From: a virus
Direction: 5' to 3' (one strand)
Virus record (IMG/VR): IMGVR_UViG_3300032116_001177
Coordinates: 1 to 25,892 of that record
Length of the DNA stretch: 25,892 nucleotides
Shown here: positions 21,910 through 25,440 of the stretch, piece by piece
Layout: the number at the start of each line of letters is the position of its first letter
Position numbering within the stretch: the first letter of the stretch is position 1
Notes under the pieces: model-generated
Database searches by the model: none
The model's input: the letters and a program-made list of their open reading frames with translations, nothing else
Told to the model about the DNA's origin: nothing
Translations under genes and position numbers: made by a program

Positions 21910-21917
21910 TCTAAATA
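21910..21917 (+). promoter_or_regulatory. Possible variant late promoter before gp3
   Basis: TCTAAATA follows the terminator T run directly and lies 14 bases before the gp3 ATG. It has one mismatch to TATAAATA at the second position, where change is less well tolerated in T4, so the call is weak. Confidence 0.35.
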
Positions 21918-21930
21918 GTCAAAAAAGATC

Positions 21931-22482
21931 ATGGTAGCAGGACAACCTGAAAATAGAAATTTCTTATCTCCAACAGGATTTAAATTCACATTAAAAAGAA
22001 CACCAAAAGTTGCATTTTTTTGCAACTCAGCCAACATACCAGATTTAACTCTAGGGGTTGCAAATCAACCCACTTATTTAAAAGATCTTGATATTCCCGG
22101 CGATAAAATAATTTTTGGCGATTTAAGTTTAAGATTTTTGGTAGATGAAAATTTAGAAAATTACATGGAAATCCAAAACTGGATAAGAGGTCTTGGTTAT
22201 CCAGAAAGTTTGAGTCAAATATACGATTTCCGTACAACTGGTAGTATAAATCCTCCACGGGACGCCCAAGAACAAATAGGATTATATTCAGACGGAACAT
22301 TGCAAATTTTAACAAGTTCTTCTATACCAAATTTTCAGATTATTTTTAAAAATCTTTTTCCTTATTCTTTAGGAACATTAACTTTTGATGCTACAGATAC
22401 AGATGTAAGATACTTTACAGCAGATGTTAGTTTCAAGTATAGTATATACAATATAGTAGATCTTGGTGGGAATCCTTTATGA
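21931..22482 (+). CDS. 3: Tail completion / tube terminator protein gp3
   Basis: The 183-residue protein (T4 gp3 is 176) lies between gp23 and uvsY, where marine T4-like phages encode gp3. It begins with QPENRNFLSPTGFKFTLKRT and FFCNSANIPDLTLGVANQPT, and has FLVDENLENYMEIQNWIRGL and a C-terminal strand YFTADVSFKYSIYNIVDLGG. The overall pattern is that of a tube-type fold. gp3 caps the tail tube before gp15 joins. The identification depends on gene order and on remembered similarity to annotated marine gp3 proteins; it could also be called a tube-like protein of other type. The stop overlaps the uvsY start as ATGA. Confidence 0.75.
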   Translation: MVAGQPENRNFLSPTGFKFTLKRTPKVAFFCNSANIPDLTLGVANQPTYLKDLDIPGDKIIFGDLSLRFLVDENLENYMEIQNWIRGLGYPESLSQIYDFRTTGSINPPRDAQEQIGLYSDGTLQILTSSSIPNFQIIFKNLFPYSLGTLTFDATDTDVRYFTADVSFKYSIYNIVDLGGNPL

Positions 22483-22916
22483 GTTTAGATCTTGATATGA
22501 TTCAAAAAATGTGGGAACAAGATTCGAAGATTGATATTGATAATCTTCACACAGAATCAACAAATATCCCAATTCTTCACGCAAAATACTTTGAATTATA
22601 TAATACAATATTTCTATTAAGAAAAAAAGCAGAACAGCAGAAAAGAAACATTCGCCATGAAAGATATGAATATTATTCAGGAAAGGCAGATCCAGATGTT
22701 TATGTGACTGACCCATTTCCTAAAAAAATTAGGGATAAGGATACTATGCAAAAATATCTTGATGCTGACGAAAAACTTTCTTCAGTATGTTTAAAAATAG
22801 ATTATTACGATACTATGTTAGTATATTTGGAAAGTATTTTAAAAATGATTCAAAATAGAACTTTCCAAATTAAAAACTCAATCGAGTTTATGCGTTTTAA
22901 TGCAGGACTTGGGTAA
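22479..22916 (+). CDS. uvsY: Recombination mediator UvsY
   Basis: The 145-residue protein (T4 UvsY is 137) loads the UvsX recombinase onto gp32-coated single-stranded DNA. It has the family pattern: MIQKMWEQDSKIDIDNLHTE, a YFELYNTIFLLRKKAEQQKR helix, YYSGKADPDVYVTDPFPKKI, and a C-terminal helix LESILKMIQNRTFQIKNSIE with FMRFNAG. The ATGA overlap with gp3 (22479-22482) fixes the start and implies coupled translation. The next gene, uvsW, also belongs to recombination-dependent replication. Confidence 0.95.
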   Translation: MSLDLDMIQKMWEQDSKIDIDNLHTESTNIPILHAKYFELYNTIFLLRKKAEQQKRNIRHERYEYYSGKADPDVYVTDPFPKKIRDKDTMQKYLDADEKLSSVCLKIDYYDTMLVYLESILKMIQNRTFQIKNSIEFMRFNAGLG

Positions 22917-22923
22917 ATAAATA
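22916..22923 (+). promoter_or_regulatory. Late promoter octamer overlapping the uvsW hairpin
   Basis: AATAAATA overlaps the end of uvsY and its last base is the first base of the hairpin's 5' arm. With the T4 distance, transcription would start near 22929, inside that arm, so late transcripts would not form the hairpin. Confidence 0.5.
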
Positions 22924-22949
22924 TTCATAGCAGTCGTAATGCTATGAAT
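22923..22949 (+). promoter_or_regulatory. Start-codon-sequestering hairpin of uvsW
   Basis: ATTCATAGCA (22923-22932) and TGCTATGAAT (22940-22949) are perfectly complementary, with the loop GTCGTAA between them. The uvsW ATG (22944-22946) lies in the 3' arm. In read-through RNA from upstream the start codon would be paired. Confidence 0.7.
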
Positions 22950-24416
22950 GATGTAATTATTGAAAAGAAAAATGAAGTTTATATTAAACTTCATTGCGAA
23001 TCACATATTTTATACGAACTACAACCATATTTTACATTTGAGGTTGAATCTGCAAAATTTATGTCCCAGTATAGAAGCAAGCACTGGGACGGAAAGATTC
23101 GACTTCTGAGTACTCATACTGGGGAAATTTATGCTGGGTTGATAGATAAAGTTATCGACAAATTAAAATTGCATAATTATACTTACGAATTTAAAGAAAA
23201 CAAATTCTATGGATTACCCTTTGAAGTAAATGAAGAAATTTCTTACGAGGGTGTAAAGGATTATATGTCTTCTATTTGTTCTCATTCCCCGAGAGATTAT
23301 CAAATAGATGGAGTACACGATGCTTTAAGACATAATAGAAAATTATTGATATCACCAACTGCCTCAGGTAAATCTCTGATGATTTATTCAATCGTGAGAT
23401 ATTATGTAGATAAAGGGCAAAAAATTCTTTTAGTTGTTCCAACGACATCTTTAGTAGAGCAGATGTACAAGGACTTTGAAGATTATGGTTGGGATGCTGA
23501 TTCATATTGCCACCGTATATATTCAGGTAGAGAAAAAACTAATGAACATTCAGTCACAATTACAACGTGGCAATCTGTATATAAATTAGAGCGTTCATTT
23601 TTTGAAAATTATAATGTAATTATAGGAGATGAAGCTCATTTATTTAAGAGTAAATCTTTAGTTGACATTATGACTAAACTTCATCATGCAAAATATCGTT
23701 TTGGATTTACTGGTACTTTGGATGGAACGCAAACTCATAAATGGGTTCTTGAAGGACTATTTGGACCATCATATAAAGTAACAAGAACTTATGAGTTGAT
23801 GCAACAGGGGCATATTTCTCAATTAGATATTCGTTGTCTTGTTCTTAAGCATCCACCTCAAAAATTTGAAACTTATGAAAATGAAATACAATATCTTATC
23901 CAGCATGAACAAAGAAATAAATTTATTACAAATCTTTCTTTAGATTTAAAAGGAAACACTCTTGTTCTCTTTTCTAGAGTTGAAGCACATGGATCTATAC
24001 TATATGAAAGAATAAATAACATTAAACGAGATGATCGTAAAGTATTTTTTATTCATGGTGGAGTGGACACTGAAGAGAGAGAATTAGTTAGAGAAATTAC
24101 AGAAAGAGAAAATAATGCAATTATTGTTGCTTCTTATGGAACTTTCTCTACTGGAATTAATATAAAAAATCTACATAATGTAATTTTTGCTTCTCCAAGT
24201 AAATCAAGAATTAGAAATCTTCAATCAATTGGAAGAGTTTTAAGAAAAGGGAAAAATAAAACAAAAGCAGTTCTTTATGATATATCTGATGACTGTACAT
24301 ACAATTCAAGAAAAAATTATACCTTAAATCACCTCATTGAAAGAATAAAAATTTATAATGAAGAAAACTTTAATTACGAAATAATAACTATACAACTTAA
24401 AAAAGATGGGAATTGA
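22944..24416 (+). CDS. uvsW: DNA/RNA helicase UvsW
   Basis: The 490-residue SF2 helicase (T4 UvsW is 503) unwinds R-loops and branched DNA, and in T4 drives the switch from origin-dependent to recombination-dependent replication. An N-terminal DNA-binding domain (1-100, with FMSQYRSKHWDGKIRLLS) is followed by motif Q RDYQ (117-120), Walker A SPTASGKS (137-144), DEAH box GDEAHLF (228-234), motif III TGT (256-258) and motif VI QSIGRVLRKG (429-438). The ATG at 22944 lies inside a perfect hairpin and no Shine-Dalgarno sequence is visible. The gene overlaps the next one by 11 bases. Confidence 0.96.
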   Translation: MNDVIIEKKNEVYIKLHCESHILYELQPYFTFEVESAKFMSQYRSKHWDGKIRLLSTHTGEIYAGLIDKVIDKLKLHNYTYEFKENKFYGLPFEVNEEISYEGVKDYMSSICSHSPRDYQIDGVHDALRHNRKLLISPTASGKSLMIYSIVRYYVDKGQKILLVVPTTSLVEQMYKDFEDYGWDADSYCHRIYSGREKTNEHSVTITTWQSVYKLERSFFENYNVIIGDEAHLFKSKSLVDIMTKLHHAKYRFGFTGTLDGTQTHKWVLEGLFGPSYKVTRTYELMQQGHISQLDIRCLVLKHPPQKFETYENEIQYLIQHEQRNKFITNLSLDLKGNTLVLFSRVEAHGSILYERINNIKRDDRKVFFIHGGVDTEERELVREITERENNAIIVASYGTFSTGINIKNLHNVIFASPSKSRIRNLQSIGRVLRKGKNKTKAVLYDISDDCTYNSRKNYTLNHLIERIKIYNEENFNYEIITIQLKKDGN

Positions 24417-24801
24417 AGAAGATTTTTATTGCACAGTCAAACTAAAAACCGGTGAAGAAATATTCGCTAAAATAGCAGCTTCTGAAGAAGATGATAGAAC
24501 ATTACTTATAGTTTCTAACCCCATAACTGTAGATGAAATTAAAGGTAAATCTGGAGTTATAGGATATAAATTAGAACCATGGTTAAAAACATCAAAAGAA
24601 GATATGTTTATTATTGACTTAAAGGATGTTTTAACTCTTTCTGAATCTTCCGATATTGAAATGATTATGATGTATCAAACTTATGTCAGACAATCCTTAA
24701 AAAACTCTACAAAAGAATCTAAAATTAATCGTAGAATGGGATACCTAGCAAATGTAAATGATGCTAAAGAAATCTTAGAGAAGATTTATAAGAATAGATA
24801 G
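24406..24801 (+). CDS. Putative Sm-like (LSm) fold protein between uvsW and gp55
   Basis: The 131-residue protein overlaps the end of uvsW by 11 bases. Its N-terminal part (FYCTVKLKTGEEIFAKIAAS, then EEDDRTLLIVSNPITV) has the strand-turn pattern of an Sm fold (x-V-x-L-K-[NT]-G-x-x-[IV]). The stretch YKLEPWLKTSKEDMFIIDLK, DVLTLSESSDIEMIMMYQ is conserved, as I recall, in proteins at this place in cyanophage genomes, and a metagenomic Sm-like protein of putative cyanophage origin has been described structurally. The C-terminus is helical (VNDAKEILEKIYK). An RNA-binding role is plausible but inferred. The sequence shows no transmembrane segment. Confidence 0.75.
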   Translation: MGIEEDFYCTVKLKTGEEIFAKIAASEEDDRTLLIVSNPITVDEIKGKSGVIGYKLEPWLKTSKEDMFIIDLKDVLTLSESSDIEMIMMYQTYVRQSLKNSTKESKINRRMGYLANVNDAKEILEKIYKNR

Positions 24802-24903: not shown

Positions 24904-25440
24904 ATGATCACTACCGCAGTTATGACCAAAAGAAAAAGGTCTGAGCATTATGTAAATAATAAAGATTTTCTTTCTGCTCTTATTAAATATAGGGAAGATG
25001 TAGAAATAAGTTTTATTAAAAAGTATGGAAAAGAACCAACTAAAGATGAGTGTGGTAAAAGTTGGGATACAAAACCTCCAATTCCACGTTATATTGGAGA
25101 ATGTTTTTTAAAAATTGCAAATCATCTTTCCTTTAAGCCTAATTTTGTAAATTATATGTTTAAAGAAGATATGATTTCTGATGGCATAGAAAATTCAGTT
25201 CAATATATTCATAATTTTAATCCAGATAAATCCCAAAATCCTTTTGCTTATTTTACTCAAATTATCCATTATGCATTTTTGAGACGTATTCAAAAAGAGA
25301 AGCGTCAATTGGAAATTAAAAATAAAATTCTTGAACGTTCTGGGTTCTCTGAGGTTTTTGACGATAATTTGCTTGACGGATCCAATTATAGTGATTACAA
25401 TACTATCAAAGATGTAGTACATAGTAAATTGAGGTATTAA
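24904..25440 (+). CDS. 55: Late transcription sigma factor gp55
   Basis: The 178-residue protein (T4 gp55 is 185) replaces the host sigma factor at late promoters. Visible family features are RSEHYVNNKDFLSALIKYRE at the N-terminus, PRYIGECFLKIANHLSFKPN, and the region-2-like core FVNYMFKEDMISDGIENSVQ, YIHNFNPDKSQNPFAYFTQI, then LRRIQKEKRQLEIKNKILER. This is the part that opens and binds the TATAAATA box. The start is uncertain: ATG at 24904, or the ATG at 24922 giving 172 residues (MTKRKRSEHY), which better fits typical N-termini; neither has a good ribosome site. The stop overlaps gp47 as TAATG. Confidence 0.94.
   Translation: MITTAVMTKRKRSEHYVNNKDFLSALIKYREDVEISFIKKYGKEPTKDECGKSWDTKPPIPRYIGECFLKIANHLSFKPNFVNYMFKEDMISDGIENSVQYIHNFNPDKSQNPFAYFTQIIHYAFLRRIQKEKRQLEIKNKILERSGFSEVFDDNLLDGSNYSDYNTIKDVVHSKLRY

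Follow-up and report, generated by a model that had tools for sequence, protein, structure and literature searches.

In a 25.9 kb fragment of a T4-like cyanomyovirus of marine cyanobacteria (25,892 nucleotides; the whole analysed stretch is called the window below), the start codon of the DNA-repair helicase gene uvsW lies in a hairpin whose 5' arm begins on the last base of a late promoter octamer, and this arrangement probably locks translation until a switch of promoter releases it, as in the class known from T4 e, soc and 49, timing included. Genes for gp23, a gp3-like protein, UvsY, UvsW, an Sm-like protein, gp55 and gp47 are all located on the + strand, and the database relatives of the window are Synechococcus and Prochlorococcus phages. 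The neighbours of uvsW were identified as UvsY, gp55 and gp47 by using Pfam and PHROG. The uvsY ORF (22479..22916; Pfam UvsY, 3.1e-41; PHROG 231) is located upstream of uvsW, and its TAA stop codon (22914-22916) shares one base with the octamer AATAAATA (22916..22923). The octamer ends on the first base of the 5' arm ATTCATAGCA (22923..22932), which is followed by the loop GTCGTAA (22933..22939; variable among relatives) and the 3' arm TGCTATGAAT (22940..22949). The ATG of uvsW (22944-22946; ORF 22944..24416; Pfam UvsW_N, ResIII and Helicase_C) is contained in the 3' arm. An initial annotation had given the coordinates of this perfect 10 bp stem exactly, and its placing of the octamer end on the first stem base was confirmed. 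A gp55-like late sigma factor, the expected reader of the octamer, is encoded at 24904..25440 (PHROG 234, 1e-60).

The T4 late octamer occupies positions -13 to -6, and conservation of its first T is lacking among many relatives (PMC1524935). The octamer upstream of uvsW had been described as one base off consensus, which holds against T4 TATAAATA but not against NATAAATA, the cyanophage late motif reported for S-PM2 and Syn9 (PMC2984593) and also found in other T4-like phages (PMC1524935). The window contains 12 copies of NATAAATA on the + strand versus one on the - strand, and eight other genes carry NATAAATA or NCTAAATA 13-43 nt 5' of their start; for uvsW the distance from octamer to ATG is 20 nt. 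With the octamer at a predicted -13 to -6, late uvsW RNA would begin at the A at about 22929, six bases after the octamer end. A start at about 22929/22930 is supported by 116 other late leaders (from three close relatives, the window, S-SKS1, S-SM2 and Syn9), in which the sixth and seventh positions after the octamer are the only ones with a rise in purines and a drop in C. The base at the predicted start is A in 216 of 232 octamer-bearing uvsW junctions. The triplet CAT (22926..22928), which pairs with the ATG, would by the T4 spacing rule occupy -3 to -1, immediately 5' of the predicted start as in T4 soc, so the late RNA would lose the bases that mask the start codon. CATAG was considered as a general late promoter element and was rejected, since it is missing from other late leaders.

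Folding of read-through and late RNA, which the initial annotation had proposed, gave the expected difference, with the 10 bp stem in the former and 4 bp in the latter. Read-through RNA (22880-22990) folds with the complete stem (z -3.5; none of 200 shuffles was equally stable), whereas RNA from 22929 retains a 4 bp remnant, and its ATG is open in the fold. The predicted probability of an unpaired start codon is 0.001 for read-through RNA versus 0.53 for late RNA, which is thus only about half open at this codon, and 13.2 versus 4.6 kcal/mol are needed to open -12 to +12. Starts shifted by 2 nt upstream to 3 nt downstream of 22929 gave an openness of 0.21-0.54; with a shift of 3 nt upstream the openness was 0 and the ATG stayed paired. 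No Shine-Dalgarno-like motif was found upstream of the uvsW ATG in the window, and such motifs were present in only four of 61 close relatives; because they are nearly absent, masking of the AUG itself is a plausible route to silencing. No terminator was found in the gap between uvsY and uvsW, and the stem does not resemble an intrinsic terminator of the + strand, being followed by GATGTAATT and containing only three G-C pairs.

The proposed sequence of events is as follows. RNA begun upstream would read through uvsY, and 22923-22932 would fold onto 22940-22949 and bury the uvsW ATG. Once gp55-dependent late transcription begins at about 22929, the new RNA would lack 22923-22928, CAT included, and could form only the 4 bp remnant AGCA/TGCT; its leader of about 15 nt, devoid of a Shine-Dalgarno motif, would then be translated. 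As the lock would be opened by promoter choice, most UvsW would derive from the late promoter of uvsW itself, even in the presence of earlier uvsY RNA. By analogy with T4, the purpose may be to spare origin R-loops until late in infection. Structure, conservation, covariation, geometry and the octamer link come from computation, whereas the exact 5' end, the strength of repression of read-through RNA and its early timing are inferred.

The timing component is the part most exposed to an alternative, in which the same lock serves another purpose: the read-through RNA would itself be late, starting from the CTAAATA before gp3, and the hairpin would set the UvsW:UvsY ratio without any delay. This is unlikely, but several features of the locus accord with it. 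The gene preceding uvsY is gp3, which is of late type and carries a CTAAATA of its own, so read-through from uvsY is only putatively early; the octamer TCTAAATA is located at 21910-21917, 13 nt 5' of gp3, and gp3 and uvsY overlap. No convincing early promoter was found upstream of uvsY, where sigma-70-like sites occur at chance level. TATACT before uvsY was tried as an early promoter and rejected; its conservation is uninformative because it encodes a conserved Lys-Tyr-Thr of gp3. If read-through RNA is itself late, the hairpin would govern amount and not time. Against such exclusively late read-through, uvsY is a middle gene in T4, and according to the T4 annotation its transcript primes oriF. 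The S-PM2 counterparts of MotA-controlled T4 genes are preceded by early and late promoters (PMC2984593), and the middle class of cultured cyanomyoviruses includes nucleic-acid genes (PMC7238727).

Distinct uvsW junctions (268) were collected by sequence-collection scans. A late octamer was present 19-28 nt (mostly 20-23 nt) upstream of the uvsW start in 232 of these. Because the junctions share descent, tests across them are not independent and all p-values given here are descriptive. The octamer-bearing junctions had a median z of -1.9, with p <= 0.05 in 113; those with an ATG start (n=143) had a median z of -2.6 (91 at p <= 0.05), and those with a GTG start (n=81) a weak hairpin with a median z of -1.2 (18 at p <= 0.05). 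No hairpin was found in S-SM2, a member of the GTG-start group. The remaining eight start with TTG; in the TTG-start junctions L214 and L052 a stem CCCATA/TATGGG lies directly after CTAAATA, with an apparent Shine-Dalgarno sequence, GGAGG, displayed in the loop. In more distant ATG relatives a stem of 7-10 bp lies directly 3' of the octamer in other registers, with its end at the ATG or at most a few bases short of it (L158, L364, P-SSM2, S-SKS1), and in the most distant ATG relatives the hairpin is lost.

The 36 junctions without octamer had no hairpin (their median z was +0.55 and none reached p <= 0.05), so the hairpin accompanies the late promoter and not uvsW itself. Overlap between the uvsW start and the stop of the gene upstream occurs in 29 of these 36. 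The junction octamer is absent from Syn9, Syn1, P-TIM68, S-PRM1, S-CAM9, S-SCSM2R, S-RIM2 and Melnitz. The statement of the initial annotation that UvsW must be made late is therefore not generally valid for these phages: several isolates, Syn9 and Syn1 among them, have neither octamer nor hairpin before uvsW, and tight late-only control is inessential there. Start codons that overlap or abut the upstream stop in the absence of an octamer were seen in L226 (P-TIM68), L227, L230, L231, L232 (Syn1), L238 (Syn9) and others; this is probably coupled translation, the opposite arrangement.

Coupling was also weighed as an explanation for the window; translation of uvsW would then require the stem to be melted by ribosomes completing uvsY. 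Among 60 close relatives, 35 have the uvsY stop inside the octamer, a few bases 5' of the stem. At that distance a ribosome terminating on uvsY would be in contact with the stem base. With the usual ribosome footprint, however, a ribosome at 22914-22916 extends to about 22926 and covers only the outer few base pairs. Moreover, the junctions in which uvsW appears truly coupled, namely the overlapping ones, have no hairpin, and the hairpin tracks the octamer, not the stop. Coupling at this junction is accordingly rather improbable, and a lock opened by the late promoter is preferred.

Terminator-like hairpins with T-runs were observed just 5' of the uvsW octamer in L323, L324, L326, L328, L332, L368, L379 and L387, and in S-CAM7 (L233) such a hairpin lies over the octamer; these may be a different route to shield uvsW from upstream RNA. 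The idea that terminators replace the start hairpin was rejected, as the hairpin in 13 such junctions (e.g., S-CAM7, L323, L324, L326) has a median z of -1.9, the same as in the rest.

Covariation was analysed in 60 close relatives with an ATG start and a UvsW identity of at least 77.5%, which gave 33 distinct arm pairs, unselected for pairing. The alignment of related phages, proposed in the initial annotation, revealed conserved pairing with compensatory changes in both arms; the absence of conserved pairing, which would have spoken against the switch, was not found. Standard pairs occupied 82% of cells compared to 31-45% in slid registers. Changes on both sides were found at five of the ten pairs, in 29 cells; slid registers gave no more than 8 such cells, and none of 500 shuffles reached 29. 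On the UvsW tree, 14 double changes led from pair to pair, versus 2, 2 and 0 in slid registers. The codon 2 changes AAT/AGT/TGT have their pairing counterparts ATT/ACT/ACA in the noncoding 5' arm. Examples of arm pairs are ATTCATAGCA/TGCTATGAAT in the window, ATTCATAGTA/TACTATGAGT in L096, ACTCATAGAAT/ATTCTATGAGT in L241 and ACACATAACG/TGTTATGTGT in L083.

The same alignments bear on a DNA-level element, such as a palindromic operator or an extended promoter 3' of the octamer, for which it may be said that CAT-A-G at -3 to +2 is common even among GTG-start relatives. CAT-A-G is missing from other late promoters, however, and pairing to the start region persists although loop and register vary. 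Among non-Watson-Crick cells of all distinct arms, read on the + strand, G-U was favoured over A-C by 28 to 12, as expected of RNA; in stems of at least 8 pairs the counts were 14 to 1, a figure partly biased by selection. A role at the level of DNA is thus very improbable.

The mere presence of the stem is only mildly unusual, since perfect stems of at least 10 bp (loop 3-10) occur twice in the window versus 0.4 +/- 0.6 times in dinucleotide shuffles. The second one (22971-22995; 11 bp, 3-base loop, uvsW codons 10-18) was set aside as a chance stem because it is broken in relatives. At the site between octamer and start, however, the stretch that runs from the last base of the octamer through start+5 has an MFE of -11.2 kcal/mol (z -5.5); the case rests on location, comparison and covariation, not on the presence of a stem alone. 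The equivalent segment in 27 other late genes has a median z of -0.12. Comparable structure was found in only one of about 127 other late octamer/ORF pairs. In S-SKS1, S-SM2, Syn9 and the window, 85 octamer/ORF cases contained three strong structures, two of which belong to uvsW (window and S-SKS1), leaving one in about 83 non-uvsW leaders; the late leaders of three close relatives contained none (0/44). A search of the window against Rfam gave no match above the gathering score. Neither chance pairing in AT-rich DNA nor intrinsic termination of antisense RNA is a credible explanation, for although the second perfect stem is unconserved and the stem at the start codon is listed by a - strand terminator scan, the former idea is largely refuted by conservation and covariation in the alignments and the latter lacks a T run (ATTTATTTAC, - strand) and a known - strand gene at this place. 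The structure is almost certainly real and selected as RNA.

The only other late-octamer gene found with its start codon in a strong stem is SWZG_00081 of S-SKS1 (L478; start 11521, - strand; annotated as NAD synthetase), in which GATAAATA forms CTCAT...ATGAG; it is a possible second lock.

The T4 hairpin logic invoked in the initial annotation was borne out by positive controls. In T4 e, soc and gene 49 the octamer is located at or before the 5' arm, and the same computation gave drops in opening cost from 16.2 to 1.9, 8.0 to 6.3 and 15.7 to 3.3 kcal/mol, respectively. T4 soc (L493), computed in the same way, shares the geometry of uvsW here: two bases separate the octamer from a CAT at -3 to -1, which pairs with the ATG within a stem of about 10 bp. 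It differs in carrying a Shine-Dalgarno sequence in the loop and in encoding a capsid protein, whereas uvsW encodes a DNA/RNA helicase and has no such sequence; late soc RNA retains about six pairs, with the start largely paired in prediction, compared to four pairs in late uvsW RNA. In T4 e the start region is hidden in read-through RNA, and late RNA without the 5' part is translated, a reported difference of about 100-fold (PMC3014915). The likeness to uvsW extends to late promoters immediately upstream, but the e helix also hides the Shine-Dalgarno sequence, two late promoters are present, and its control is experimentally proven where that of uvsW is predicted. T4 gene 49, I-TevI and Aeh1 mobE likewise have a helix covering the initiation region, with a late promoter at its 5' arm or inside it (PMC2988022, PMC3014915); in these other genes, from Shine-Dalgarno-driven hosts, the Shine-Dalgarno sequence is hidden or the ATG is flanked.

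T4 uvsW itself is expressed from a late promoter, and its product ends R-loop origin use (PMC3016281). Gene and, by prediction, late promoter are shared with the window, but T4 uvsW (L234) follows segE and lies opposite to uvsY, and the nearest octamer-like sites are 98-102 nt upstream. No start hairpin was found there (z -0.1), nor a drop in opening cost like those of e, soc and 49. The timing of T4 uvsW seems to rest on transcription, and on transcription alone as far as is known.

The late-only switch for uvsW suggested in the initial annotation is partly supported overall, through conserved pairing, the link to the octamer, and geometry. No earlier description of a uvsW start hairpin was found in the literature searched, which excludes most subscription journals. 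The principle is known from other T4 genes; as far as was found, the gene, the virus group and the masking of a start codon whose leader lacks a Shine-Dalgarno sequence are new. Because T4 origins are primed by R-loops, which UvsW removes, the timing of UvsW decides the moment of the change in replication mode. Tentatively, and with less confidence than is attached to the lock itself, it is proposed that in cyanomyoviruses with an ATG-start uvsW an AUG-masking lock in such a leader times the R-loop helicase and hence the switch from origin-primed to recombination-primed replication, that this lock was repeatedly re-established over the start codon in varying registers, and that other lineages instead couple uvsW to the upstream gene. 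If this is true, the late-hairpin logic of T4 would extend to a replication regulator and to a distant host group, and the cyanophage origin-to-recombination switch could be tested directly by changing a few bases.

Immediately after uvsW, positions 24406-24801 encode a protein with an Sm-like fold (Pfam Sm_like, 5e-13), a conserved neighbour and possible RNA-binding protein, whose homologues in many records carry the label 'methylamine utilization'.
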